DNA of 64,000 nt, taken from Alistipes sp. (GTDB lineage: Bacteria; Bacteroidota; Bacteroidia; Bacteroidales; Rikenellaceae). The notes under the pieces are model-generated. The model saw only the letters and a program-made list of their open reading frames with translations. It made no database searches and had not been told where the DNA came from. The translations under genes and the position numbers were made by a program. Each line of letters starts with the position of its first letter. The stretch's first letter is position 1. This document shows, one piece after another, positions 20,352 to 49,154 of this stretch. Where the stretch lies: contig JAFZFX010000009.1 in NCBI GenBank assembly GCA_017555695.1, positions 1-64,000 of the forward strand, in the 5' to 3' direction.

Positions 20352-23300
20352 ATGGATATAGTTAGTAGCATTATCAAACTGTTGTTCGGTTCAAAGGCCG
20401 ACAAGGACAGAAAGCAGATAGAGCCTTATGTGAAGAAAATCACTGAGATTTATCCTTCAATCAAGGCTTTGTCTAACGACGAGTTGCGCGCACGAAGCGC
20501 AGCCCTGATGAAGAAGATTGCCGACTTCATCGCCTCTGACGAGGCTCACATCGCAGAGCAGAAGGCAAAGTTGGAGATAGCCGAGACATCACTCTCTGAC
20601 AAGGAGAAGATTTCGAAGGATATCGACCAGACCACGAAGCGCATCGACGAAAAGATCGAGCAGGTGCTGGACGAGATTCTGCCCGAGGCCTTCGCTATTA
20701 TGAAGGATACGGCTCGCCGTTTCACCGAGATGGAGACTGTAGTGGTTACAGCCAACGCCTTCGACCGCGACCTGGCGGCGCACAAGGACTTTGTCACCAT
20801 CGAGGATGACAAGGCCATCTATCAAACACACTGGACTGCAGGCGGTAACGACCTGAAGTGGGAGATGGTACACTACGATGTACAGCTCTTCGGTGGTGTG
20901 GTTCTGCACAAGGGTAAGATTTCGGAGATGGCAACGGGTGAGGGTAAGACCTTGGTGGCTACACTTCCCGTATTCCTCAACGCCTTGGCTCGCAAGGGTG
21001 TGCATGTGGTGACTGTGAACGACTACCTGGCTCGTCGTGACTCGGAGTGGATGGGTCCGATGTATGAGTTCCACGGTCTGTCGGTAGATTGCATCGACAA
21101 GCACCAGCCCAACTCTGAGGCTCGCCGCAAGGCATATATGGCCGATATCACATTCGGTACAAATAACGAATACGGCTTCGACTACCTGCGCGACAATATG
21201 GCTTCATCGCCCAAGGATCTTGTTCAGCGCAAGCACCACTACGCTATCGTCGATGAGGTGGACTCTGTATTGATTGACGATGCGCGTACTCCGCTTATCA
21301 TCTCGGGTCCCGTACCAAAGGGTGACGACCAGCTCTTCGAGCAGTATCGTCCCTCGATCGAGCACCTCTACAACTTGCAGAAGAATATGGTGACATCGCT
21401 GGTTGCCGAGTCACGCAAGCTCTTTGCCGAGGGTAAGGTTGATGAGGGTGGCGTGCTGTTGTATCGTGCCCACAAGGGTCTGCCCAAGTACAAGCCAATC
21501 ATCAAGTTCCTCTCGGAGCAGGGTATCAAGGTTCAGTTCCAGAAGACCGAGAACATCTTTATGCAGGATAACAACCGCCGTATGCCCGAGATTACCGACG
21601 AGCTCTACTTCGTCATCGACGAGAAGATGAACTCTGTCGAGCTTACTGACAAGGGCCACGATGTATTGTCAAAGTACTTCAACGAGGAGGGCTTCTTCGT
21701 ATTGCCCGACATCGGTAGCGTTGTTGCCGAGTTGGAGAAGAGCGACCTCAGCCCCGAGGAGAAGATGCAGCGCAAGGATCAGGTTATCAACGACTACTCG
21801 ATCAAGACCGAGCGCGTTCACACCGTCAATCAGTTGCTCAAGGCCTACTCTATGTTCGAGAAGGATGTTGAGTATGTGGTGATGGACAACAAGGTGAAGA
21901 TTGTGGACGAGCAGACTGGTCGTATTCTCGACGGCCGCCGCTACTCTGACGGTCTGCACCAGGCTATCGAGGCCAAGGAGCGCGTAAAGGTAGAGGCTGC
22001 TACACAGACATTTGCAACAATCACACTCCAGAACTACTTCCGTATGTACCACAAGTTGGCAGGTATGACAGGTACCGCCGAGACCGAGGCATCGGAGTTC
22101 TGGAACATCTATAAGTTGGATGTTGTGGCTATTCCCACAAACAAGCCCGTCATCCGCGACGACCGCGACGACCTTGTTTACAAGACCAAGCGCGAGAAGT
22201 ACAACGCCGTAATCGACGAGGTAGTACGCCTCGTTGAGCAGAAGCGCCCCGTATTGGTGGGTACTACTTCGGTTGAGATTTCGGAGTTGTTGAGCCGTAT
22301 GCTTAAGTTGCGCGGCATCAAGCACAATGTACTTAACGCCAAGCAGCACCAGCTGGAGGCACAGATCGTAGCCGAGGCAGGTCGTGCTGGACAGGTTACC
22401 ATCGCCACCAATATGGCGGGTCGTGGTACCGATATCAAGCTTACACCCGAGGTTAAGGAGGCAGGCGGTCTGGCCATCATCGGTACAGAGCGTCACGAGA
22501 GCCGCCGTGTAGACCGCCAGTTGCGTGGTCGTGCCGGCCGTCAGGGTGACCCCGGTTCTTCACAGTTCTTTGTATCGTTGGAGGATGACCTTATGCGTCT
22601 GTTCGGTTCGGAGCGTATCGCTTCGATGATGGATAGAATGGGTATCCAGGAGGGTGAGGTTATTCAGGCATCGATTATGTCGAAGGCCATCGAGCGCGCC
22701 CAGAAGAAGGTCGAGGAGAACAACTTTGGTATCCGTAAGCGTCTGTTGGAGTATGACGATGTGATGAACTCACAGCGTGAGGTTATCTACACTCGTCGTC
22801 GCCACGCACTCTACGGCGAAAGAATCGAGATTGACCTTAACAATACGATGTACGACTTTGCCGAGAAGTTTATGGAGTCACACGAGGGTATGGACTACGA
22901 CACATTCTCATTCGAGTTGATTCGTGAGGTAGCCCTGCAGCCCACATTTGACGAGGCTACATACAACGCCGCCAAGCCGAAGGAGTTGGTAGAGCTGATC
23001 GTAAAGGATCTGCACTCACTCTATATGCGTCGTGGCAAGGCTGCGGCTGACACCGTACGCCAGACTATGGAGCGCATCTATGAGGACAACAAGTTGATGA
23101 TGGATCGTGTTATCCACTTCCCGCTCACTGATGGCCACTTGGGCTTCCATGTGCCTGTAGAGTTGCAGAAGTGCAAGGATACAGACTGCGCCGAGATTTA
23201 CAAAGTATTCGCCAAGATTGTGATGTTCACAACAATCGACGATGCTTGGCGTGAGCACCTGCGCGAGATGGACGAGTTGCGCCAGAGTGTACAGAACGCT

Positions 23301-36336: not shown

Positions 36337-37410
36337 ATGGAGAGAATCAGAATATATCAGTTTACCGACCCCACCTGCATCTGGTGTTGGGGCAACGAGC
36401 CTGCAATCAGGGCGTTGGACTATCTTTACGGCAGCAAGATAGATATAGAATTCATCATGGGCGGACTCGTCGAGGATATCTACACGCTCTACAACATCGA
36501 GGGTAGCCGCCAGCACATACTCGACTGCGCCAACGCCCGAATCACCGACACCTGGCGTGCCGCCTCGAAGTGCCACGCGATGCCCATCAGAGAGGGTGCC
36601 GTGGCGCTCTACAACGAGAACTACACTTCGAGTTTCCCGCAGAACATAGCCTACGAAGCGGCCAAACGCATCGACCGCCAGAAGGCCAAACACTTTCTGC
36701 GACTGCTACGCGAAGCGACCTTCACCGAGGGTAAGCGCACCTCGCAGATTGATGTGCTGATTGAGTTGGCCGCGAAGGCGGGAATCGACGCCACGCAGTT
36801 CATCGACGCCTACACCAACGGCGACGCGCAGGCCGACTTCCTGAGCGACAGGATGCTCTGCCAGCGCAATGGCATCACGGGCTTCCCATCGTATATGATT
36901 AAGTACAACGACACGAGCATCATACTCGGTGGATATCAGAATCTTGATACATTCCACAACATCATAGCACGCCTATCGGGTGGCAAGGTAAAACCCAAGA
37001 AGGCGGGCCCCTCGCTGGCCAATGTACGCGAATTCATCAACCACTACGAGAGGGTCTATCCCGTCGAGATTGAGACCGCCTTTGGCCTCGACAAGGCGGC
37101 CACCGACCTGATGATAAGCAACCTTATCGAGGATGGCAGCGTAGCAACAACCCCCATTGGACAAGGACAAAGACTTTCGTTGTCGGGCGCATACCGCACG
37201 GCACAACACAATAAAAAATTTAATTATAAAACTATGGAAAAGAAAGAGTTGAAAACAACAGCCACAAAGGCCGAAAACGCAGCAACCAAATCAGCAGCCG
37301 AAAAGTCGGCTACAAAGGCCTCTGCAGAGAAGTGTACAACAAAGGGTTGTGGCACATCGAAGCCCAAGGCTACCACTGCGAAGAAGGAGAAGCAGACCGT
37401 TAAGGCATAG
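36337..37410 (+). CDS. DsbA-like thioredoxin-fold protein with Lys/Ala-rich tail
   Basis: The main part (about 290 residues) resembles DsbA-family proteins of the FrnE/SpxH (YjbH) branch: IYQFTDPTCIWCWG at the start with an active-site CxxC, FIMGGLVEDI, and GITGFPSYMIKYND with the cis-Pro. No signal peptide is visible, so it is probably cytoplasmic; relatives act in oxidative-stress proteolysis. The last ~58 residues, from an internal Met at 37234, are Lys/Ala/Thr repeats (KTTATKAENAATKSAAEKSA) resembling histone H1-like tails. The junction (CACAATAAAAAATTTAATTA) looks like intergenic DNA, so this may be a fusion. I use the ATG at 36337 rather than a GTG at 36289. Confidence 0.75.
   Translation: MERIRIYQFTDPTCIWCWGNEPAIRALDYLYGSKIDIEFIMGGLVEDIYTLYNIEGSRQHILDCANARITDTWRAASKCHAMPIREGAVALYNENYTSSFPQNIAYEAAKRIDRQKAKHFLRLLREATFTEGKRTSQIDVLIELAAKAGIDATQFIDAYTNGDAQADFLSDRMLCQRNGITGFPSYMIKYNDTSIILGGYQNLDTFHNIIARLSGGKVKPKKAGPSLANVREFINHYERVYPVEIETAFGLDKAATDLMISNLIEDGSVATTPIGQGQRLSLSGAYRTAQHNKKFNYKTMEKKELKTTATKAENAATKSAAEKSATKASAEKCTTKGCGTSKPKATTAKKEKQTVKA
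37234..37410 (+). CDS. Possible independently translated Lys/Ala-rich small protein
   Basis: An in-frame ATG inside the previous gene is preceded by an A+T-rich, leader-like tract and would give a 58-residue basic protein containing CTTKGCG and ending KKEKQTVKA. It could be a separate histone-like gene whose upstream neighbour lost its stop codon, or simply the tail of a longer protein. I list it as an alternative reading, not as a second certain gene. Confidence 0.3.
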   Translation: MEKKELKTTATKAENAATKSAAEKSATKASAEKCTTKGCGTSKPKATTAKKEKQTVKA

Positions 37411-37459: not shown

Positions 37460-37498
37460 GGGGTTGTCCAGCAATTTGTCGGACAACCCCTTATTTTT
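37460..37498 (+). terminator. Terminator after the thioredoxin-fold gene
   Basis: GGGGTTGTCC pairs with GGACAACCCC (10 bp) followed by TTATTTTT. It separates this gene from the ilv promoter. Confidence 0.9.
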
Positions 37499-37658: not shown

Positions 37659-37689
37659 TTGTTTTTAATATTTTTTACTATTATATTTG
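37659..37689 (+). promoter_or_regulatory. Promoter of the ilv-leu operon
   Basis: TTG (37659-37661) and TATATTTG (37682-37689) with a 20-base spacer. Transcription should start near 37695, giving a leader of about 225 bases before ilvD. A GGTGTTT/AAACACC hairpin (37722-37743) lies early in the leader. Confidence 0.75.
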
Positions 37690-37771
37690 CAGTGTAGTTA
37701 GGTTTTTTAGGTGAAATGAGGGGTGTTTTAGCCCCGAAACACCGTAAAAGTTAGGTAATTTAAGTTAATTT

Positions 37772-37828
37772 ATGAATAGCTGTTTGTATATTATTATCAA
37801 CCTAATCCTCGTGGTCTTGCGTAGATAA
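37772..37828 (+). CDS. ilv-leu operon leader peptide
   Basis: An 18-codon reading frame, ATG to TAA, encodes MNSCLYIIINLILVVLRR; ten residues are Ile, Leu or Val, the three end products of the operon. It lies between the operon promoter and the attenuator hairpins, with the A+T-rich upstream context common for starts in this genome. A ribosome slowed at the Ile/Leu/Val codons would cover CAACCT (37798-37803), the region that otherwise pairs with AGGTTG (37837-37842). This is the arrangement of ilvL/leuL leaders in enterobacteria, but the sequence is unrelated to them. Confidence 0.85.
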   Translation: MNSCLYIIINLILVVLRR

Positions 37829-37900
37829 CGGGAGAAAGGTTGTATGTATACAGTAGCTGAATTATACCAAGCCTTTCTCCTTGCTGGAGAAAGGTTTTTT
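37798..37900 (+). promoter_or_regulatory. Transcription attenuator of the ilv-leu operon
   Basis: Four segments can form exclusive pairs. Segment 1 CAACCT (37798-37803) pairs with AGGTTG (37837-37842). Segment 2 GGAGAAAGG (37831-37839) pairs perfectly with segment 3 CCTTTCTCC (37872-37880): the antiterminator. Segment 3 pairs with segment 4 GGAGAAAGG (37886-37894), a 9-bp stem with a 5-base loop followed by six T (37895-37900): the terminator. Segments 2 and 4 are identical. Stalling on the leader peptide frees segment 2 and lets transcription reach ilvD; completion to the stop codon covers segment 2 and favours termination. Confidence 0.85.
37872..37900 (+). terminator. Attenuator terminator before ilvD
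   Basis: CCTTTCTCC, loop TTGCT, GGAGAAAGG, TTTTTT, ending 20 bases before the ilvD ATG. It is the off state of the leader switch. Confidence 0.9.
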
Positions 37901-37920
37901 AGTTAAAAACAAGGTTAGTG

Positions 37921-39744
37921 ATGAAACATCAATTACGAAGCGCAGTAACCACCGTAGGACGCCGTATGGCTGGCGCGAGAAGTCTTTGGAGAGCAAACGG
38001 AATGAAGAAGGAGCAGATGGGTATGCCTATCATCGGCATCGCCAACTCTTTTACGCAAATGGTTCCGGGACATGTACATCTGCACGAGATTGGCCAGTAT
38101 GTAAAGCAACTCATCGAGGAGCAGGGCTGTTTCGCCGCCGAGTTCAATACCATCGCCATCGACGATGGTATCGCAATGGGCCACGACGGTATGCTCTACT
38201 CGCTGCCTTCGCGTGACATCATTGCCGACAGCGTAGAGTACATGGCCAACGCCCACAAAGTGGACGCACTGGTTTGCATCAGCAACTGCGACAAGATTAC
38301 GCCCGGTATGTTGATGGCATCTATGCGACTGAACATCCCCACAATCTTCGTTTCGGGTGGTCCGATGGAGGCTGGCGTATTCCGTGGCCGTGGCGCCGAC
38401 CTGATTGACGCTATGGTATTGAGCGCCGACGAGAAGTGTACCGACGAGGATGCCGACGAGATTGAGGCTTCGGCTTGCCCTGGTTGCGGCTCTTGCTCGG
38501 GTATGTTTACCGCTAACTCTATGAACTGTCTGAACGAGGCTCTGGGTCTGGCTCTGCCTGGCAATGGTACTATCGTTGCCACACACGAGAATCGCAAGGC
38601 TCTCTTCGAGAAGGCTGCCCGCATCATCGTCGAGAATGCCAAGCGCTACTACTTCGAGGGTGACGACAGCGTTCTGCCCCGCTCTATCGCAACAAAGGCT
38701 GCCTTCGAGAATGCTATGTCGCTCGACATCGCTATGGGTGGCTCTACAAACACCGTACTGCACCTGCTGGCCGTAGCTCACGAGGCTGGTGTAGATTTCA
38801 CAATGGCCGACATCGACCGTCTTTCACGCATGATTCCCGTACTCTGCAAGGTGGCACCCAACGGACACTACCACATTCAGGATGTGAATCGCGCTGGCGG
38901 TATTATGGGCATCTTGGGCGAGCTCTCTCGCAATGGTCTTATTGACTCTACAGCCCGCCGAGTGGATGCAGCATCGTTGGCCGACATTCTGGATAAATAC
39001 TACTTCGGTTCGGAGAATTTCTCTGACGAGGCACGCAAGATATATTTGAGCGCCCCCGCCAACCGCTACAGCCGCGTGATGGCGTCACAGGCCACCTACT
39101 ACAAGGAGATGGACGACGACCACGCCGAGGGTTGCATCCGCGACTTCGACCACGCCTACTTCCGTGACGGAGGTCTGGCAGTGCTGACTGGTAACATCGC
39201 CCGCAAGGGTTGTATCGTGAAAACTGCAGGTGTGGACAAGAGCCTGATGCAGTTCAGCGGCAAGGCCAAGGTATTCGAGTCGCAGGAGCAGGCTATGAAT
39301 GGCATCCTGGGTGGCGAGGTAGAGGCTGGCGATGTGGTTGTCATTCGCTACGAAGGTCCGAAGGGTGGCCCTGGTATGCAGGAGATGCTCTACCCCACTT
39401 CGTACCTCAAGTCGAAGCATCTGGATAAGGCGTGTGCGCTGATTACCGACGGCCGCTTCTCTGGTGGAACATCGGGTCTGTCGATTGGCCATGTATCGCC
39501 CGAGGCCGCATCGGGTGGTGAGATTGGTATCATCAACGATGGTGACATCATTGACATCAACATCACCGAGCGCTCGATTAACCTGCGCATCAGCGAGAGC
39601 GAACTCAGCGAGCGTATGGCCGCGTGGACTCTGCACGCTCCCGTAAACCGCGACCGTGTGATACCGCAGTCGCTCCGTGCATACTCACTGCTCGTCTCGT
39701 CAGCTGACCAGGGCGCAGTAAGAATCCTGCCCGACGAGAAATAG
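37921..39744 (+). CDS. ilvD: Dihydroxy-acid dehydratase
   Basis: IlvD dehydrates dihydroxyisovalerate and dihydroxymethylvalerate to the 2-oxo acids that precede valine, leucine and isoleucine. At 607 residues it matches E. coli IlvD. Landmarks are [30 protein letters not shown] and [19 protein letters not shown], which carry Fe-S cluster Cys, and [20 protein letters not shown] near the C-terminus. A GTG directly before the ATG is a possible but unnecessary start. It is the first structural gene after the attenuator; ilvB follows after 35 bases. Confidence 0.97.
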
Positions 39745-39779: not shown

Positions 39780-41516
39780 ATGATTTCAGGTTTTTCAGAT
39801 AATAGTGTCGCAGAGCAGCCCAAGAAGGATTTGCCACGCATCTCGGGTGCAGAGGCGGTTATCCGCTCTTTCATCGAGGAGGGTGTGGAGACAATCTTCG
39901 GTTACCCTGGAGGTGCCATCATCCCCGTATACGATGCTCTGTACGACTATCAGGATAAGTTAAATCATATTCTAGTGCGTCACGAGCAGTGTGCGCTGCA
40001 CTCGGCACAGGGCTATGCCCGCGCCAGCGGCCGCACAGGAGTCTGCATCGTAACATCGGGCCCTGGTGCTACAAACACCGTGACAGGTTTGGCCGATGCT
40101 ATGCTCGACTCAACGCCCGTGGTACTCATCAGTGGTCAGGTGGCATCAAGCACACTCGGTACTGACGCCTTTCAGGAGATTAACTTCTTGGAGATTACAC
40201 AATCAGTCACAAAGTGGAATTGCCAGGTGAAGCGCGCTGAGGATATCCCCGCCGCCATCGCCAAGGCCTTCTACATCGCATCAAGCGGACGCCCCGGCCC
40301 CGTAGTGGTGGATATCACGAAGGATGCACAGAATGGCCTGCTCGACTTCGAGTACAAGCCCGTTAAGTTCATACGCAGCTACCAGCCCTACCGCGAGATT
40401 GACAGCGACCAGATTCTGGAGGCTGCACGATTGATAAACCTCTCGAAGAAGCCCATGGCTCTCATCGGTCAGGGTGTTATCCTGGGAGGTGCCGAGAAGG
40501 AGCTCAAGGAGTTCCTGGAGAAGAGCGGTATGCCCGCCGCAGCTACACTGCTGGGTCTGTCGGCTCTGCCCTCTGACCACCCGCAGTATGTGGGTATGCT
40601 CGGTATGCACGGCAACTATGGCCCCAACATCAAGAACCGCGACTGCGATCTGCTGGTTGCCATCGGTATGCGTTTCGACGACCGCGTGACGGGCGATGCT
40701 TCGCAGTTTGGTATCAACGCCAAGGTGGTGCATCTCGAGATCGACCCCGCCGAGGTGAACAAGCTGGTATATGCCGATGTTCCCGTTATTGGCAATGTCA
40801 AGGAGTCGCTGCCACTGCTCACCGAGAAGATCTCAAAGAAGGAGCATACAAAGTGGCTCGACGAGTTCCGCGTATGCTACAACATCGAACGAGAGGATAT
40901 CATCGAACCAGCTATTGCACGCCGTGGCCCGCATCTGAGAATGGGCGAAGTGGTGGATGCCGTAGCCAGCCGATTCGACGACGCCATCCTCGTTACGGAT
41001 GTGGGTCAGCAGCAGATGTTCGCATCGCGCTACTTCAAGTTCAAGCAGACACGTAGCATCATCACATCGGGCGGTCTGGGTACAATGGGCTTTGGCCTGC
41101 CCGCAGCCATCGGCGCAAAGATTGGCGCACCCGAGCGAGATGTATGCCTGTTCGTAGGTGACGGAGGTCTGCAAATGACATCGCAGGAGCTGGGCACAAT
41201 CTACCAGTCGCAGGTGGGAGTGAAAATCATCCTGATGAACAACGGCTACCTGGGTATGGTGCGTCAGTGGCAGGAACTCTTCTACAACCGTCGCTACTCG
41301 TTCACCGAGCTGACAAACCCCGACTTCGAGTTGCTGGCAAAGGCCAACCGCATACCCTACCGTTGCGTTGAGCGTCACGAGGATTTGGACGAGGCCATAG
41401 CCGAGATGAAGGCAACAGAGGGTGCATTCCTGCTGGAGGTGAGAGTCGAGAAGGAGGAGAATGTATTCCCGATGGTACCCGCAGGACAACCCGTAACTAA
41501 CATCCGATTGGAGTAA
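39780..41516 (+). CDS. ilvB: Acetolactate synthase, large subunit
   Basis: The thiamine diphosphate enzyme that condenses pyruvate with pyruvate or 2-oxobutyrate. The 578-residue protein has FGYPGGAIIPVYDALY at the N-terminus, GPGATNTVTGLADAMLDSTP, and the ThDP-binding block starting GDGGLQMTSQELGTI and ending with NNGYLGMVRQWQ (near residue 490). The catalytic Glu lies in LVRHEQCALHSAQGYARASG. It pairs with the regulatory subunit encoded 15 bases downstream. Confidence 0.97.
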   Translation: MISGFSDNSVAEQPKKDLPRISGAEAVIRSFIEEGVETIFGYPGGAIIPVYDALYDYQDKLNHILVRHEQCALHSAQGYARASGRTGVCIVTSGPGATNTVTGLADAMLDSTPVVLISGQVASSTLGTDAFQEINFLEITQSVTKWNCQVKRAEDIPAAIAKAFYIASSGRPGPVVVDITKDAQNGLLDFEYKPVKFIRSYQPYREIDSDQILEAARLINLSKKPMALIGQGVILGGAEKELKEFLEKSGMPAAATLLGLSALPSDHPQYVGMLGMHGNYGPNIKNRDCDLLVAIGMRFDDRVTGDASQFGINAKVVHLEIDPAEVNKLVYADVPVIGNVKESLPLLTEKISKKEHTKWLDEFRVCYNIEREDIIEPAIARRGPHLRMGEVVDAVASRFDDAILVTDVGQQQMFASRYFKFKQTRSIITSGGLGTMGFGLPAAIGAKIGAPERDVCLFVGDGGLQMTSQELGTIYQSQVGVKIILMNNGYLGMVRQWQELFYNRRYSFTELTNPDFELLAKANRIPYRCVERHEDLDEAIAEMKATEGAFLLEVRVEKEENVFPMVPAGQPVTNIRLE

Positions 41517-41531: not shown

Positions 41532-42068
41532 ATGGAAAAAGAGTTTATCATAACAATATTTTCGGAGAACACGGTCGGATTGCTCAGTCAGATTACAACC
41601 GTCTTCACACACCGTAATGTAAACATCGAGTCGTTCACCGCCTCGGAGTCGGCTATCGAGGGTATCTACAAGCATACCATCATCGTCAAGAACGATGCCG
41701 AGAAGGTGGCCAACCTGGTGAAGCAGATTGAGAAGAAGATTGATGTGCTGAAGGTATTTTGCTACAGCCCCAACGAGGTGGTATTGCAGGAGTTGGCACT
41801 CTACAAGGTGCAGCGCAGCCGCAATGTCGAGGAGTTGGTTAGACGACACAATGTGCGTATTCTGGATATCCACGACGACTACATCGTGCTGGAGAAAACG
41901 GGCCACAAGGAGGAGATTCGCGAGCTCTACAAGATGCTGGAGCCCTACGGCGTTTACCAATTTGTCTGCTCGGGACAGGTGGCCATCATCAAGTCACAGC
42001 GCGAATTGCTGAGCGAGTATCTCGAGTATGTGGACCAAAGACAGAAGCAGATTGAGAATAACGAATAG
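41532..42068 (+). CDS. ilvN: Acetolactate synthase, regulatory subunit
   Basis: A 178-residue small subunit with an N-terminal ACT domain (IITIFSENTVGLLSQITTVF, ~residues 5-75) that binds valine in related proteins, and a C-terminal ALS-small-subunit domain ending near YLEYVDQR. It confers feedback control on the catalytic subunit. Its gene lies 15 bases after ilvB and 60 before ilvC. Confidence 0.94.
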   Translation: MEKEFIITIFSENTVGLLSQITTVFTHRNVNIESFTASESAIEGIYKHTIIVKNDAEKVANLVKQIEKKIDVLKVFCYSPNEVVLQELALYKVQRSRNVEELVRRHNVRILDIHDDYIVLEKTGHKEEIRELYKMLEPYGVYQFVCSGQVAIIKSQRELLSEYLEYVDQRQKQIENNE

Positions 42069-42128: not shown

Positions 42129-43175
42129 ATGGCAAAGATGAATTTCGGCGGCGTAGAGGAAAATGTCGTAACACGCGAGGAGTATCCATTGGCAAAGGCT
42201 TTGGAGACATTGAAGGATGAGACAATCGCTATCATTGGTTATGGTGTACAGGGCCCTGGCCAGTCACTCAACCTTCGTGACAACGGTTTCAATGTAATCG
42301 TAGGTCAGCGTAAGGATTCAAAGAGCTGGGACAAGGCCGTAACAGACGGTTGGGTTCCTGGTGAGAACCTCTTTGACATCGAGGAGGCTTGCGAGAAGGC
42401 TACAATCATCGAGTACCTGCTTTCTGATGCTGGTCAGATTGCTGTTTGGCCCACAATCAAGAAGCACCTTACTCCTGGTAAGGCTCTCTACTTCTCACAC
42501 GGTTTCGGTATCACTTACAAGGAGCGCACAGGTATCGTTCCTCCCGCTGATGTTGATGTTATCTTGGTTGCTCCCAAGGGTTCAGGTACATCACTCCGTC
42601 GTATGTTCTTGCAGGGCCGTGGCTTGAACTCAAGCTACGCTATCTTCCAGGATGCTACTGGCAAGGCTTGGGACCGCGTAATCGCACTCGGTATCGGTGT
42701 TGGTTCAGGTTACCTCTTCGAGACTACATTCAAGCGTGAGGTTTACTCTGACCTTACAGGTGAGCGTGGTACATTGATGGGTGCTATCCAGGGTATCTTC
42801 GCTGCACAGTACGAGGTATTGCGTCAGAACGGCCACACACCCTCTGAGGCTTTCAACGAGACAGTAGAGGAGCTCTCACAGAGCCTTATGCCTCTGATCG
42901 CCGAGAACGGTATGGATTGGATGTACGCTAACTGCTCTACAACAGCACAGCGCGGTGCGCTCGACTGGTGGAAGAAGTTCCGCGATGCAACTCGTCCCGT
43001 ATTCGAGGAGTTGTACAGCGAAGTAGCGTGCGGTAACGAGGCACAGCGCAGCATCGACACCAACTCACAGCCCGACTATCGTCAGAAGTTGGAGGAGGAG
43101 CTCAAGGAGATGCGCGAGACAGAGATGTGGCAGGCTGGTGCCGTTGTACGCAAACTCCGTCCCGAGAACAACTAA
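42129..43175 (+). CDS. ilvC: Ketol-acid reductoisomerase
   Basis: IlvC isomerises and reduces acetolactate or acetohydroxybutyrate with NAD(P)H and Mg2+. The 348-residue class I enzyme has the dinucleotide motif AIIGYGVQGPGQSLNLRDNG near residue 35, VILVAPKGSGTSLRR, and FKREVYSDLTGERGTLMGAI with metal-binding acids. The cofactor loop is GQRKDSKSWDKA; I cannot decide NADH versus NADPH from it. Codon choice (GGT, GCT, CTT, ACA) is strongly biased compared with the rest of the operon, suggesting unusually high expression. Confidence 0.96.
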   Translation: MAKMNFGGVEENVVTREEYPLAKALETLKDETIAIIGYGVQGPGQSLNLRDNGFNVIVGQRKDSKSWDKAVTDGWVPGENLFDIEEACEKATIIEYLLSDAGQIAVWPTIKKHLTPGKALYFSHGFGITYKERTGIVPPADVDVILVAPKGSGTSLRRMFLQGRGLNSSYAIFQDATGKAWDRVIALGIGVGSGYLFETTFKREVYSDLTGERGTLMGAIQGIFAAQYEVLRQNGHTPSEAFNETVEELSQSLMPLIAENGMDWMYANCSTTAQRGALDWWKKFRDATRPVFEELYSEVACGNEAQRSIDTNSQPDYRQKLEEELKEMRETEMWQAGAVVRKLRPENN

Positions 43176-43257: not shown

Positions 43258-44754
43258 ATGAGCGAGAAAGTATATATATTTGACACCACATTGCGCGACG
43301 CCGAGCAGGTACCTGGTTGCCAGCTCAACACAATCGAGAAGATTGAGGTTGCGCGTCAGCTGGAGAAGCTGGGCGTAGATATCATCGAGGCGGGTTTCCC
43401 CATCTCAAGCCCTGGTGACTTCAACTCGGTGGTAGAGATTTCAAAGGCTGTGACTAACCCCACCATCTGTGCCTTGACGCGTGCCGTCAAGAAGGATATT
43501 GATGTGGCAGCTCAGTCGTTGGAGTTCGCCAAGCGAGGCCGAATCCACACAGGTATCGGCACCTCTACCTACCACATCTACGAGAAGCTGCGTATGACTC
43601 CCGAGACCGTTCTGGAGCAGGCCGTAGAGGCTGTGAAGTATGCACGCCGATTCGTCGATGATGTAGAGTTCTATGCCGAGGATGCTGGCCGTACCGACGA
43701 GGAGTTCCTGGCACGCGTGGTAGAGGCTGTGATTGCAGCGGGTGCTACGGTTGTGAACATCCCCGACACTACGGGTTACTGTCTGCCGAGCGAGTATGGT
43801 GCCAAGATTGCATATCTGAAGAACAATGTGCCCAACATCGACAAGGCCATCATCTCGACACACTGTCACAACGACCTGGGTATGGCTACGGCCAACACCT
43901 TGGCTGGTGTGCAGAACGGTGCGCGACAGGTGGAGGTTACAATCAACGGTTTGGGCGAAAGAGCTGGTAACACCGCTATGGAGGAGGTTGTAATGGCTAT
44001 CAAGTGCCACTCTAACCTCGACTTCGAGGTGGGCATCGACTCAAAGCAGATTGTCACTACCAGCAAGTTGGTATCTAACCTTATGCGTATGCCCGTCCAG
44101 GCCAACAAGGCTATCGTTGGTCGCAACGCATTTGCTCACTCGTCGGGTATCCATCAGGATGGCGTGCTTAAGAGCCGCGAGACATACGAGATTATCGACC
44201 CCGAGGATGTAGGCATAGACCAGTCGAGCATCGTGCTCACAGCCCGCAGTGGCCGTGCTGCACTGAAGCACCACCTCGCCGAGCTCGGTTACACACCTGA
44301 GAACGAGGAGTTGGACGACATCTATCAGCGTTTCCTGGATTTGGCCGACAAGAAGAAGATGGTGACTACACGCGACCTAGAGGTGCTCATCGGCACAGCC
44401 TCATCGCGTCGTCGTATGAGCATACAGCTCACAGGCCTGCAGGTTGTCTGCGGTAAGTCGAGCATCCCTACAGCTACCGTACAGATTAGCTTCGATGGTG
44501 ACACCTTCACCGAGACAGCGTGCGGTAACGGTCCCGTGGATGCAGCCATCACAGCCGTTAAGAACATCACCAAGCGCCGTGTCCACATCGAGGAGTTCCT
44601 CGTGCAGGCCATTACGCGCGGTAGCGATGACTTGGGTAAGGTACACATCCAGATTTCGCACAAGGGTAAGATTTACCACGGTTTCGGTGCAAATACCGAC
44701 ATCGTAACAGCATCGGTGGAGTCGTTCATTGATGCAATATCGAAAATAGCATAA
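43258..44754 (+). CDS. leuA: 2-Isopropylmalate synthase
   Basis: LeuA condenses 2-oxoisovalerate with acetyl-CoA, the first leucine-specific step. The 498-residue protein has [16 protein letters not shown] (catalytic Arg-Asp) at the start, [20 protein letters not shown] (metal His) near residue 203 and [18 protein letters not shown]. The C-terminal domain from about residue 385 ([20 protein letters not shown]) is the LeuA regulatory domain where leucine inhibits. A hairpin precedes the gene; leuC follows after 10 bases. Confidence 0.95.
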
Positions 44755-44764
44755 TTAGCGACAG

Positions 44765-46159
44765 ATGAATACATTATTCGACAAAATATGGGATGCACAC
44801 ACCGTCAGAATGTTGGACGGAGCATCGTGTGTACTCTACATTGACCGTCAATACATACACGAGGTGACAAGCCCGCAAGCCTTTGCGGGTCTGCGCCGAC
44901 GCGGCATCGGGGTATTCCGTCCCGAGCAGGTGACGGCAAGTCCCGACCACAACATCCCCACACAGAATCAGCACCTGCCCATCTCTGAGCCGCAGTCAGC
45001 CGAGCAGGTTGCCACTCTGGAGCGCAACTGCGCCGAAAACAATATCACCATATTCCCCATCGGCTCGGAGCGCAACGGCATCATCCATGTGATTGGCCCG
45101 CAGACAGGACTCACACAGCCTGGCATGACCATCGTTTGTGGCGATAGCCACACCTCTACTCACGGTGCGCTGGGTTGCGTAGCCTTCGGTATCGGTACAA
45201 GCGAGGTGGAGATGGCGCTGGCATCGCAGTGTATCCTGCAATCGAAGCCGAAGAGTATGCGTATAAATGTCGAGGGTGAGTTGCGCGAGGGCGTATGCTC
45301 GAAGGATATCATCCTCTACATCATCTCGAAGTTGGGCACAGGCGGTGGCACAGGCCACTTCGTCGAGTTCGCTGGCTCGGCTATCCGTTCACTCTCGATG
45401 GAGGCTCGTATGACAATCTGCAATATGAGTATCGAAATGGGAGCCCGTGGTGGTATGATTGCCCCCGACGAGGTGACATTCGAATACCTGAAGGGCCGCG
45501 AGTTCGCACCCAAGGGCGAGGAGTGGGATAAGGCCGTGGAGCGTTGGAAGAGCCTCAAGTCAGAGGATGATGCCATCTTCGACAAGGAGGAGACATTCGA
45601 CGCTGCCGACATCGAGCCTATGATTACCTACGGTACAAACCCAGGTATGGGCATCGCCATCAACGCCGAGATTCCCTCGGCCGAGGGTCTTGACGAGGCA
45701 TCGAAGGCTTCGTTCGACAAGGCGCTGGCTTATATGGGCTTCAACGCAGGCGAGAAGATGGCGGGCAAGAGAGTCGATTATGTATTCGTTGGCAGCTGCA
45801 CAAACGGCCGTATCGAGGACCTGAGAGCCTTTGCTCACTTTGTTAAGGGTCGCAAGAAGGCCGACAGCGTGACGGCGTGGATTGTCCCTGGCAGCAAGGA
45901 GGTTGAGCGTATGGCTATCGAGGAGGGTCTGCGCGACATTCTTCAGGAGGCAGGCTTCGAGTTGCGCCAACCAGGATGCTCGGCTTGTCTGGCAATGAAC
46001 GACGACAAGATTCCCGCAGGCAAATATTGTGTAGCCACATCCAACCGCAACTTCGAGGGTCGTCAGGGCCCCGATGCTCGCACTCTGCTGGCAGGACCTC
46101 TGGTAGCAGCCGCAGCAGCGGTAACGGGCGTGGTAACCGACCCCAGAGAGTTGATGTAA
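44765..46159 (+). CDS. leuC: 3-Isopropylmalate dehydratase, large subunit
   Basis: A 464-residue aconitase-family subunit that, with LeuD, isomerises 2- to 3-isopropylmalate. Landmarks are [20 protein letters not shown] near residue 130, [15 protein letters not shown] (first cluster Cys, near residue 345) and [14 protein letters not shown] (CxxC, two cluster Cys near 405-408). Twenty-two bases separate it from leuD. Confidence 0.97.
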
Positions 46160-46181: not shown

Positions 46182-46769
46182 ATGAGAAATAAATTCACTA
46201 CACTCCAATCGACGGTGGTACCTCTGCCCATCGAGAATATCGATACCGACCAGATTATCCCCGCCCGCTTTCTGAAGGCCACCACACGCGAGGGCTTCGG
46301 CGAAAACCTCTTCCGCGACTGGCGCTACGACAACAACGGAGAGCCCAAGGCCGACTTCGTGATGAACAACGCCACATACAAGGGTGAGATTTTGGTTGCA
46401 GGCAAGAACTTCGGTTGTGGCTCAAGCCGTGAGCACGCAGCGTGGGCCATCGATGGTGCTGGCTTCCGCGCAGTGGTATCGAGTTTCTTCGCCGACATCT
46501 TCCGTAACAACGCCCTCAACAACGGACTCCTGCCCGTAACGGTGAGTGAGGAGATGCTGGCCGAGATTTTCAAGGCCGTAGAGGCTAACCCCGCAACAAC
46601 GCTGAAGATTGACCTCAGCGAGCAGACTATCGAGATTGAGGGTCAGCCGATGAAGGAGAAGTTCGATATTACCCCCTACAAGAAGCAGTGTCTGATGAAC
46701 GGATACGACGATGTGGACTATCTGGTCAGCATACACGAAGAGATTGAGAATTACGAGAACGAGAGATAA
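46182..46769 (+). CDS. leuD: 3-Isopropylmalate dehydratase, small subunit
   Basis: A 195-residue partner of LeuC carrying the swivelling domain. Motifs are [16 protein letters not shown] near the start and [20 protein letters not shown] near residue 70. Length and position are standard. leuB follows. Confidence 0.97.
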
Positions 46770-46799: not shown

Positions 46800-47867
46800 A
46801 TGAAAAATATTAAGATTGCTGTATTGCCAGGCGACGGCATTGGTCCCGAGATTGTAGCCCAGGCAGTGAAGGTTGTAGACAAAGTAGCAGCAAAATTCGA
46901 TTACAACATCGAGTACTCATACGGCATCGTGGGTGCCGCCGCTATCGATGCGGTGGGTGACCCCTACCCTGCCGAGACGCACGAGAAGTGTATGGCTGCC
47001 GATGCCGTTCTGTTCGGAGCGATTGGCGACCCCCGCTTTGACAACAACCCCGAGGCGAAGGTACGCCCCGAGCAGGGTCTGTTGGCTATGCGCAAGCAGT
47101 TGGGTCTCTATGCCAACCTGCGCCCCGTTACCACCTTCGAGTCGTTGCTCCACCGCTCGCCCCTGCGCTATGACCTGGTTGCAGGCGCCGACTTTATGTG
47201 CGTACGCGAGCTGACGGGAGGTCTCTACTTCGGTCGTCCGCAGGGCCGTTCAGAGGATGGTCAGACAGCATACGACACCTGCGTATATACTCGCAAGGAG
47301 ATTGAGCGCATCTGCCGTCTGGGATTCCAGTATGCCGCCAGCCGTCGTGGCAAGCTGACCGTCGTGGACAAGGCCAATGTACTGGCTACATCGCGTCTGT
47401 GGCGTGAGACTGCCAAGTCAATGGAGAAGGATTACCCCAATGTGGAGGTCGAGTATATGTTCGTGGACAACGCTGCGATGAAGCTCATCCAGCAGCCCAG
47501 CCACTTCGATGTGATTGTGACCGAAAATATGTTCGGCGACATCCTCACCGACGAGGCGAGCGTAATCACTGGCTCGTTGGGTCTGTTGCCTTCGGCATCT
47601 ATCGGCGAGGGCACATCGCTCTTTGAGCCTATCCACGGCTCATACCCGCAGGCTGCAGGCAAGAACATCGCCAACCCGATTGCCACTATTCTCTCGGCTG
47701 CGATGATGTTCGAGTACGCCTTCTCGGATATGGAGGCGGGTGCCGCCATTCGCAAGGCCGTGGCTCTGTCGATTGAGCAGAACATCTCGACCGAGGATAT
47801 CATCCCCGAGGGATGCCAGCCGCACTCAACAACTGAGGTGGGCGACTTTATTGCCTCACACATTTAA
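46800..47867 (+). CDS. leuB: 3-Isopropylmalate dehydrogenase
   Basis: LeuB oxidatively decarboxylates 3-isopropylmalate using NAD+. The 355-residue protein has [20 protein letters not shown] at the N-terminus, [15 protein letters not shown] near residue 132, and the signature [20 protein letters not shown] near 242. I choose the ATG at 46800; the in-frame TTG at 46776 adds eight residues not seen in the family. Confidence 0.96.
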
Positions 47868-47888: not shown

Positions 47889-49154
47889 ATGAGTAATGCG
47901 AACAAATATTTTCCGGCTCTAAACGACATTATGACGGCAGAGCATACGCTGAGCGAGATTCTCTCGGCTACACCGCTTATGCATAATAGAAATCTGTCGG
48001 ATAAGTTCGGAGCAGAGGTGATGCTCAAGCGCGAGGATTTGCAGATGGTGCGTTCGTATAAGATTCGCGGTGCCTACAACAAGATTCGCTCACTTACCGA
48101 GGAGCAGACCGCCCGCGGTATAGGCTGTGCGAGTGCGGGCAACCACGCCCAGGGTGTGGCACTGTCGTGCAACAAACTGCAAATCAAAGGCAAGATATTT
48201 ATGCCTGTGACCACCCCCAAGCAGAAGATCAATCAGGTGAAGATGTTTGGCGGCGAGTTCGTCGAGGTGGTATTAGTGGGCGATACATTCGACCAGGCCA
48301 ACACGGCAGCCATCGAGACCTGCCAGGCCGAGGGCAAGACATTCATCCCGCCCTTCAACGACCCCAAAATCATCGAGGGTCAGGGCACTGTAGGTCTGGA
48401 GATTCTGCAGCAGAGCAGAGCCGCTATCGACTATATCTTCGTTCCCATCGGAGGCGGTGGTTTGGCATCGGGCTTGGGTAGCGTATGCAAGATGATGTCA
48501 CCCAACACCAAAATTATCGGCGTCGAGCCCGCAGGTGCTGCTGGCATGAAGCAGTCATTCGAGAAGGGCGAGGTAGTGGAGTTGGAACACATCGACAAAT
48601 TCGTGGATGGCGCAGCCGTACAGAAGGTGGGCGACATCACATTCGACATCTGCCGTCAGGTGCTTGACGATATCGTGGTTGTTCCCGAGGGCAAGGTATG
48701 TTCGACAATTCTCAACCTCTACAACTTCGACGCTATCGTAGTTGAGCCCGCAGGAGCATTGAGCATCAGCGCCTTGGACTACTACCGCGACAAGATCAAG
48801 GGCAAGAATGTGGTCTGCATCGTCAGCGGCAGCAACAACGACATCGTGCGTATGGAGGATATCAAGGAGCGCTCGTTGCTCTATGAGGGACTGAAGCACT
48901 ACTTCGTAGTACGCTTCCCGCAGAGAGCAGGTGCCCTGCAGAACTTCGTGAGCTATGTATTGGGCCCGCACGACGATATCACCTACTTCGAGTATAAGAA
49001 GAAGACCAACCGCGAGAAGGGTCCCGTGCTGATTGGTATCGAGTTGCAGAACCTCAACGACTTCGAGGGTCTGACCGAGCGTATGCGTCAGAGCAACATC
49101 GACTACGAATACCTGAACGACAACCCCAACCTCTTCGAGTTCCTGATTGGATAG
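47889..49154 (+). CDS. ilvA: Threonine ammonia-lyase (threonine dehydratase)
   Basis: The PLP enzyme that makes 2-oxobutyrate from threonine for isoleucine synthesis. The 421-residue protein has SYKIRGAYNKIRSL (PLP Lys near residue 60), GCASAGNHAQGVA, and the phosphate-binding PIGGGGLASGLGSV near residue 190. The C-terminus has a single ACT-like regulatory domain (VRFPQRAGALQNFVSYVLG), shorter than the E. coli enzyme (514 residues, two such units). Its place at the end of the operon brings isoleucine precursor supply under the same attenuator. Confidence 0.94.
   Translation: MSNANKYFPALNDIMTAEHTLSEILSATPLMHNRNLSDKFGAEVMLKREDLQMVRSYKIRGAYNKIRSLTEEQTARGIGCASAGNHAQGVALSCNKLQIKGKIFMPVTTPKQKINQVKMFGGEFVEVVLVGDTFDQANTAAIETCQAEGKTFIPPFNDPKIIEGQGTVGLEILQQSRAAIDYIFVPIGGGGLASGLGSVCKMMSPNTKIIGVEPAGAAGMKQSFEKGEVVELEHIDKFVDGAAVQKVGDITFDICRQVLDDIVVVPEGKVCSTILNLYNFDAIVVEPAGALSISALDYYRDKIKGKNVVCIVSGSNNDIVRMEDIKERSLLYEGLKHYFVVRFPQRAGALQNFVSYVLGPHDDITYFEYKKKTNREKGPVLIGIELQNLNDFEGLTERMRQSNIDYEYLNDNPNLFEFLIG

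Follow-up and report, generated by a model that had tools for sequence, protein, structure and literature searches.

Organization of the ilv-leu locus

The window, i.e. the whole stretch of 64,000 nucleotides that was analysed, carries a compact block of nine genes on the plus strand. The block begins with ilvD (dihydroxy-acid dehydratase, 37921-39744) and continues with ilvB and ilvN (large and small subunits of acetolactate synthase, 39780-41516 and 41532-42068), ilvC (ketol-acid reductoisomerase, 42129-43175), leuA (2-isopropylmalate synthase, 43258-44754), leuC and leuD (large and small subunits of isopropylmalate dehydratase, 44765-46159 and 46182-46769), leuB (3-isopropylmalate dehydrogenase, 46800-47867, with a presumed start; the ORF list has 46776) and ilvA (threonine ammonia-lyase, 47889-49154). 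Gaps within the ilvDBNC-leuACDB-ilvA block do not exceed 82 nt. Every gene was matched in NCBIfam, as expected from the original prediction of a nine-gene ilv-leu block including ilvA. Upstream of the block, GGGGTTGTCC and GGACAACCCC, followed by a T-rich stretch, were noticed by eye at 37460-37498. The sigma-70/terminator scan did not flag this hairpin, which is perhaps the terminator of the upstream gene ending at 37410.

A putative promoter of the Bacteroidota type lies at 37659-37689 (plus strand). It consists of TTG at 37659-37661, which we take to be the -33 element, separated by 20 nt from TATATTTG at 37682-37689. The consensus promoter that had been predicted here thus fits in its Bacteroidota form but not as an E. 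coli-type promoter, for which a sigma-70 scan gave no match on this strand. Transcription would start near 37696. Between the promoter and the leader, a separate hairpin can be seen by eye at 37720-37743. A stem differing in sequence is also visible between promoter and ATG in L003, L006, L008, L009 and L010, and none was seen in L005 or L007. This hairpin is perhaps a 5′ stabiliser.

The leader peptide frame MNSCLYIIINLILVVLRR occupies positions 37772-37828, from the ATG at 37772-37774 to the TAA stop at 37826-37828. Ten of its 18 residues are Ile, Leu or Val (branched-chain amino acids, BCAA). The control codons are Ile at 37790-37798 and 37805, Leu at 37784, 37802, 37808 and 37817, and Val at 37811-37816. 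Segment 2, the 5′ strand of the antiterminator (GGGAGAAAGGTTG, 37830-37842), begins 4 nt past the first base of the stop codon. Segment 3 (37869-37880) is the strand common to antiterminator and terminator. Segment 4 (37886-37897) is the second arm of an intrinsic terminator of 12 pairs and runs into six T at 37895-37900, the whole element spanning 37886-37900. The antiterminator strand is identical to the terminator's second arm: GGAGAAAGG occurs at both 37831-37839 and 37886-37894, and CCTTTCTCC at 37872-37880. Finally, folding yields a 1:2 protector/pause hairpin at 37777-37859, in which 37777-37781, 37784-37791 and 37798-37803 pair with 37837-37842, 37846-37853 and 37855-37859. It includes CAACCT (37798-37803, across Ile-Asn-Leu codons) facing AGGTTG (37837-37842). 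The 18-residue frame with its ten Ile/Leu/Val, the repeated segments, the six T and the CAACCT/AGGTTG pair had all been predicted correctly to the base.

Chance occurrence of the leader elements

The leader fold has a z-score of -4.0, and none of 200 shuffles was equally stable. In the 64 kb, both strands considered, there is a single perfect 9-mer triple of the form X...rc(X)...X, and 10 one-strand shuffles contained none. An ATG frame with at least 10 Ile/Leu/Val in 12 residues arose in 18 of 20,000 dinucleotide shuffles of 37659-37921, and 2 of 974 sliding 263-nt windows, possibly including the leader site itself, reached 10 such residues. The BCAA-rich frame by itself is therefore weaker evidence. 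In this genome, a pattern search for the same stem matched the leader site only. With the covariance model also, only the leader site fell below E = 0.1, the 9 further matches (E 0.14 to 9.2) including the reverse strand of the same terminator.

The leader is conserved upstream of ilvD in Bacteroidota

A search for ilvD in 101 genomes gave matches in 38, own genome included, and 30 loci with upstream DNA, the window's among them. A leader was defined as a short frame with at least 8 Ile/Leu/Val in 12 residues. Such a leader precedes ilvD in 28 of the 29 upstream regions of relatives (29 of 30 with the window), the exception being L029. By the same rule, a leader was found in 24 of 80 named public contigs carrying an ilvD relative. 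All of these are among the 49 loci assigned to Bacteroidota by record title, as compared to none of the 31 others (Fisher p = 5e-7). The leader-bearing Bacteroidota include Alistipes, Odoribacter, Bacteroides, Phocaeicola, Saccharicrinis, Labilibaculum, Heminiphilus and Prolixibacteraceae. In the remaining 25 of the 49 named Bacteroidota loci no leader was found by the rule; three of them have at most 224 nt upstream. None of the 7 contigs with Prevotella, Prevotellaceae or Marseilla in their titles yielded a leader. By the rule, one is missing from Prevotella-like ilvD loci and from some with Bacteroidaceae titles (L060, L061, L068-L071, L083, L085, L086, L089). Since Bacteroides and Phocaeicola do have leaders, this absence may reflect a loss that could be dated.

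Altogether, a leader together with a terminator was found in 53 of 110 upstream regions, window included: 50 by rule and 3 by hand (L016, L032, L036), where the T-run is interrupted. The -7 box TAnnTTTG of Bacteroidota promoters, as named in PMC9723704, is present no more than 130 nt ahead of the leader ATG in 50 of the 52 leaders with enough upstream DNA, versus 5.0 expected from shuffles. No Shine-Dalgarno-like site was found within 16 nt of the leader ATG in any of these 52. Among the 10 leaders of 18 codons, the BCAA columns are largely kept; variable sites number 7, 8 and 10 by codon position, the third being little above the others. At E <= 0.01, covariance model R1 had matches in 208 of 393 genomes from the order and in 135 of 296 sampled from the phylum, tallies that count the own genome in both sets and contain plain terminators.

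Compensatory changes support the three helices

Alignment A2 contained 45 of the 53 leaders; L031, L057, L096, L008, L028, L037, L053 and L064 were left out as duplicate or atypical. On A2, 96.7% of the cells of the 3:4 helix are paired, 8 of its 12 pairs changed on both sides and no slid register comes near. For 2:3, 95.0% of the cells are paired and 3 of 8 pairs changed on both sides, which 6 of 500 shuffles reach. Sliding the 2:3 partner by +2 columns gave as many both-side pairs and a covariation of 0.113 versus 0.103, with 70% of paired cells versus 95%. Covariation on A2 is thus clear for 3:4 and modest for 2:3. The omissions from A2 favour structure, and a permutation test on all 53 leaders is fairer.

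In this alignment-free re-pairing test, each leader's own segments were compared with segments swapped between leaders over 10,000 permutations. Own segments paired more stably than exchanged ones for 1:2 (-18.99 versus -14.71 kcal/mol), 2:3 (-14.52 versus -12.26 kcal/mol) and 3:4 (-18.65 versus -13.36 kcal/mol), and in each case none of the permutations did as well. Among the 17 leaders of the window's genus, own segments still do better for 1:2 and 3:4. For 2:3, 7437 of 10,000 permutations were as good in the genus, because this near-invariant helix hardly varies there. Taken leader by leader, 1:2 is better than shuffles at p <= 0.05 in 17 of 53, and 2:3 alone is better in 41 and no better in 12, where more than 2 of 100 shuffles were as good. 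Overall, the original prediction that an alignment upstream of ilvD would reveal a kept short frame and three stems with compensatory changes holds in these relatives, the antiterminator being the least clear of the three.

The effect of a ribosome was approached by folding the leader with the ribosome-covered part kept unpaired, the footprint being assumed. Masking up to 37823 or 37826, as by a ribosome on the Leu/Val codons, gave the antiterminator. Masking up to 37841, as by one at the stop codon, gave the terminator, and leaving out the ribosome gave 1:2 together with the terminator. With a mask up to 37805, mimicking an early stall on Ile, the antiterminator formed while the polymerase was at segment 3 and the full leader favoured the terminator. 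Early Ile stalls should therefore act more weakly.

Spacing between control codons and segment 2

In 52 of the 53 leaders, 7-17 nt separate the end of the last BCAA codon from segment 2, and in 34 of them the distance is 9-12 nt. Relative to the start of segment 2, the stop codon ranges from 13 nt ahead to 24 nt beyond. It falls within -2 to +7 nt of that start in 37 of 53, so that it is often contained in or abuts segment 2. Because the codon-to-segment 2 distance is held while the stop position is loose, selection seems to act on distance rather than on peptide length. Such a fixed distance would make sense if a ribosome halted at the final control codons has to stay just short of segment 2.

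The codons nearest to the switch are mostly Leu-Val-Val. Indeed, codons whose first base lies 15-20 nt ahead of segment 2 are Val in 70-75% of the 53 leaders, and the preceding codon is Leu in 57%. This position next to the antiterminator suggests that shortages of Val and Leu are probably the strongest signals. The predicted response to all three branched-chain amino acids is consistent with codons for all three being present, but their positions in the 53 leaders make Val and Leu the probable dominant inputs.

Control codons follow the downstream pathway

The relation between control codons and operon was examined at 89 loci of the order, taken from the upper part of the model's match list. 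They comprise 63 ilvD, 20 leuA and 2 ilvB loci, as well as 4 with unusable leaders (L133, L148, L199, L230). One operon is present in two copies (L177/L178), one place is included twice (L121/L185), and A2 shares eight places with this set. The mean number of Val codons is 4.37 in the 63 ilvD leaders versus 0.45 in the 20 leuA leaders (p = 4e-11, kinship ignored), 12 of which have no Val at all. As the last BCAA codon, Val is found in 68% of these ilvD leaders and Leu in 80% of these leuA leaders. The model was built from ilvD leaders, so that the bias runs against finding Val-free ones.

Of 11 congeners fetched, 6 retain the nine-gene order; in the remaining 5, within the stretch read, a leader of this kind is followed by ilvDBNC only. 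Leaders of the window's clade (11, of which 7, window included, were checked for the nine genes) contain 2-3 Val each, and the 7 of its sister clade 3-5. These counts agree with a possible shift to Leu/Ile once leuACDB and ilvA had joined the operon, in a comparison that amounts to one clade split and hence one event at most.

Outside the order, 47 loci were considered (27 search loci and 20 fetched stretches). The next gene was scanned for 20 of them, most picked by peptide bias. Trp/aromatic-rich leaders precede trpE in 6 of 6 cases and Thr/Ile-rich leaders precede the bifunctional aspartokinase/homoserine dehydrogenase gene (thrA) in 3 of 3; the leader before a fourth such gene (L245) is less clear. 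Ile-rich leaders stand before ilvE in three cases, and a fourth ilvE (L167) has a Leu/Ile-rich frame. Met/Cys-rich leaders were found before two O-acetylhomoserine sulfhydrylase genes and one metN (L166, L242, L246); Met/Cys leader attenuators seem rare. In L171, a Cys-rich leader precedes a gene without NCBIfam match. The switch at these four loci is of the type described above. At 1e-20, no NCBIfam match was obtained for 3 of the 20 downstream proteins (L156, L171, L254). At 8 of the 47 loci, only a hairpin or an unrelated frame was seen (L163, L169, L173, L236, L237, L238, L241, L251).

The window's genome apparently contains a second candidate attenuator. At hisG, on the minus strand of contig G000:C37, a His-rich leader MITMLHIHHYHHHILRKIR with its ATG near 22662 (L268) is followed by a terminator-like hairpin built, as judged by eye, on a different stem. 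Visual inspection revealed no leader upstream of the aspartate kinase gene in this genome, and trpE gave no match in the assembly, which is 88% complete. Overall, control codons follow the pathway, which is hard to explain except by ribosome sensing.

A proposed ribosome-mediated attenuator and its alternatives

The region thus combines a short frame with a run of operon-product codons, an intrinsic terminator between the leader and the first gene, an antiterminator that excludes this terminator, and a 1:2 hairpin that overlaps the control codons. With the assumed footprint, a ribosome on the control codons leaves segment 2 free and a ribosome at the stop codon covers it. Together with conservation in relatives, re-pairing, covariation and the match between codons and operon, this supports the original reading as a ribosome-mediated (leader-peptide) transcription attenuator, here proposed to set the whole Ile/Leu/Val pathway. 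We put the probability of this reading at about 0.92.

According to this model, after transcription has begun, a ribosome would start on the 18-codon leader without a Shine-Dalgarno sequence. When Leu, Val and Ile tRNAs are charged, it would reach the stop codon at 37826 and cover segment 2 (37830-37842); 3:4 would then pair and RNA polymerase would stop at the T-run near 37900. When charged tRNA is short, the ribosome would stall on control codons, best on the Leu-Val-Val-Leu stretch at 37808-37819. The stalled ribosome would block 1:2 and free segment 2, and 2:3 would pair as soon as segment 3 is made. The terminator would thereby be excluded and ilvD to ilvA transcribed. In the case of no translation, 1:2 and 3:4 should both form and transcription should end.

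Other explanations deserve consideration. The leader could be translated and conserved while regulation takes another route, such as reinitiation at ilvD, Rho-dependent termination or a leader-binding protein, the hairpins setting a fixed level of termination. There are precedents: ilvB and leuA leaders of Actinobacteria are conserved and behaved non-classically when mutated, and, in Streptomyces coelicolor, altered control codons in the ilvB leader were without effect (PMC1262725). Leader genes close to structural genes have also been proposed to help reinitiation (PMC4833913), but the same source gives a Bacteroidetes peak at 11-14 bp, as compared to 92 nt from the leader stop to the ilvD ATG. 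The conserved intrinsic terminator, the antiterminator excluding it and control codons that change with the operon also argue against such a route, which we regard as improbable.

A T-box or a metabolite riboswitch, reading uncharged tRNA or the amino acid directly, would equally account for a terminator/antiterminator pair, and BCAA operons of Firmicutes are under T-box control. However, the conserved core consists of the reading frame and the switch helices. No Rfam family was found at gathering score in the 64 kb. Between 37600 and 37950, five Rfam matches with E <= 10 were all far below cut-offs, and none was a T-box, an amino-acid riboswitch or a leader family. A known RNA family, whether an Rfam leader or a T-box, was therefore rejected, and direct sensing of this kind is very improbable. 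No greater place can be given to chance, i.e. to a terminator and a spurious hydrophobic frame in an AT-rich intergenic region. Ile, Leu and Val codons share a middle T, AT-rich DNA yields such frames and 2.8% of shuffles reach 8 of 12 residues, but chance does not predict a leader in 28 of 29 relatives, the outcome of the re-pairing tests or the near absence of Val from leuA leaders.

Relation to known leaders

Leader-peptide attenuators are classical in enterobacteria, where ilvL, ivbL and leuL precede ilvGMEDA, ilvBN and leuABCD, respectively. As in these systems, the window has a short frame dense in product codons, then 1:2, 2:3 and 3:4 pairings and a T-run before a biosynthetic operon. 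The enterobacterial ilvL/leuL logic that had been proposed is thus present with all its segments, homology to enterobacterial leaders not being implied. Unlike them, the window's leader is without an Rfam leader match, has a Bacteroidota promoter and belongs to a set devoid of Shine-Dalgarno-like sites (0 of 52). Also in contrast with them, one switch stands over all nine genes and the stop codon frequently lies in segment 2 or directly beside it. Ribosome-mediated attenuation has long been known, and the window's leader is a well-supported further case.

In the same phylum, clues to leader-peptide attenuation at amino-acid operons were obtained in Flavobacterium psychrophilum, pheA and hisG being among the genes named as having new structured 5′ elements that match no Rfam family (PMC9723704). 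The main text of that article does not contain 'ilv', and its section on these elements names no ilv/leu leader and gives no anatomy. Attenuator-like short frames in long 5′ UTRs are mentioned for Bacteroides thetaiotaomicron (PMC7366714). The candidate ilvB/cys leaders of Actinobacteria likewise have Ile/Val/Leu codon runs and terminators before an ilv operon, but elements are missing there or mutations speak against classical attenuation (PMC1262725), whereas the window has all segments. A leucine-rich attenuator peptide for BCAA synthesis is reported in Staphylococcus aureus (PMC5794164); it is also a BCAA leader peptide, in another phylum, and acts beside CodY. We found no description of an ilv/leu leader in Bacteroidota in the open-access articles searched. 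Overall, this type of leader recurs widely in Bacteroidota and is little written about there.

A possible phylum-wide set of leaders

We tentatively propose, at slightly less than even odds, that a whole set of leader-peptide attenuators extends across Bacteroidota, sharing one recurring scaffold in which control codons have been exchanged per pathway; this reading rests on partly hand-picked loci. In this scaffold, the stop codon would lie within or next to a first copy of GAGAAAGG; CCTTTCTC and a second copy of GAGAAAGG, followed by T, would come after it. The codon sets would be Ile/Leu/Val before ilv, Leu/Ile with almost no Val before leuA, Ile before ilvE and Trp before trpE. Further sets might be Thr/Ile before thrA, Met/Cys before the genes of O-acetylhomoserine sulfhydrylase and MetN and, with a different stem, His before hisG. 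Such an interchangeable-codon set with Shine-Dalgarno-free initiation is the more interesting part, as compared to the single leader.

Leader-peptide attenuation works only with the ribosome close behind RNA polymerase, and Bacillus subtilis is said to run uncoupled. If true, the phylum-wide set would imply tight coupling of RNA polymerase and ribosome, as well as fast Shine-Dalgarno-free initiation on the leaders. A conserved, codon-specific Bacteroidota attenuator makes both coupling and initiation testable by a simple reporter in this phylum, outside Proteobacteria, and offers genomic evidence for coupled, Shine-Dalgarno-free translation control there. Attenuator codons would also allow prediction of the amino acids that govern pathway expression in gut bacteria, and the leader could serve as a codon-swappable switch for Bacteroides engineering.

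Finally, at four Bacteroidota loci (L143, L188, L195 and L255), two complete putative leader-peptide attenuators stand in series before ilv genes. Such serial attenuators possibly require two stalls for full expression.
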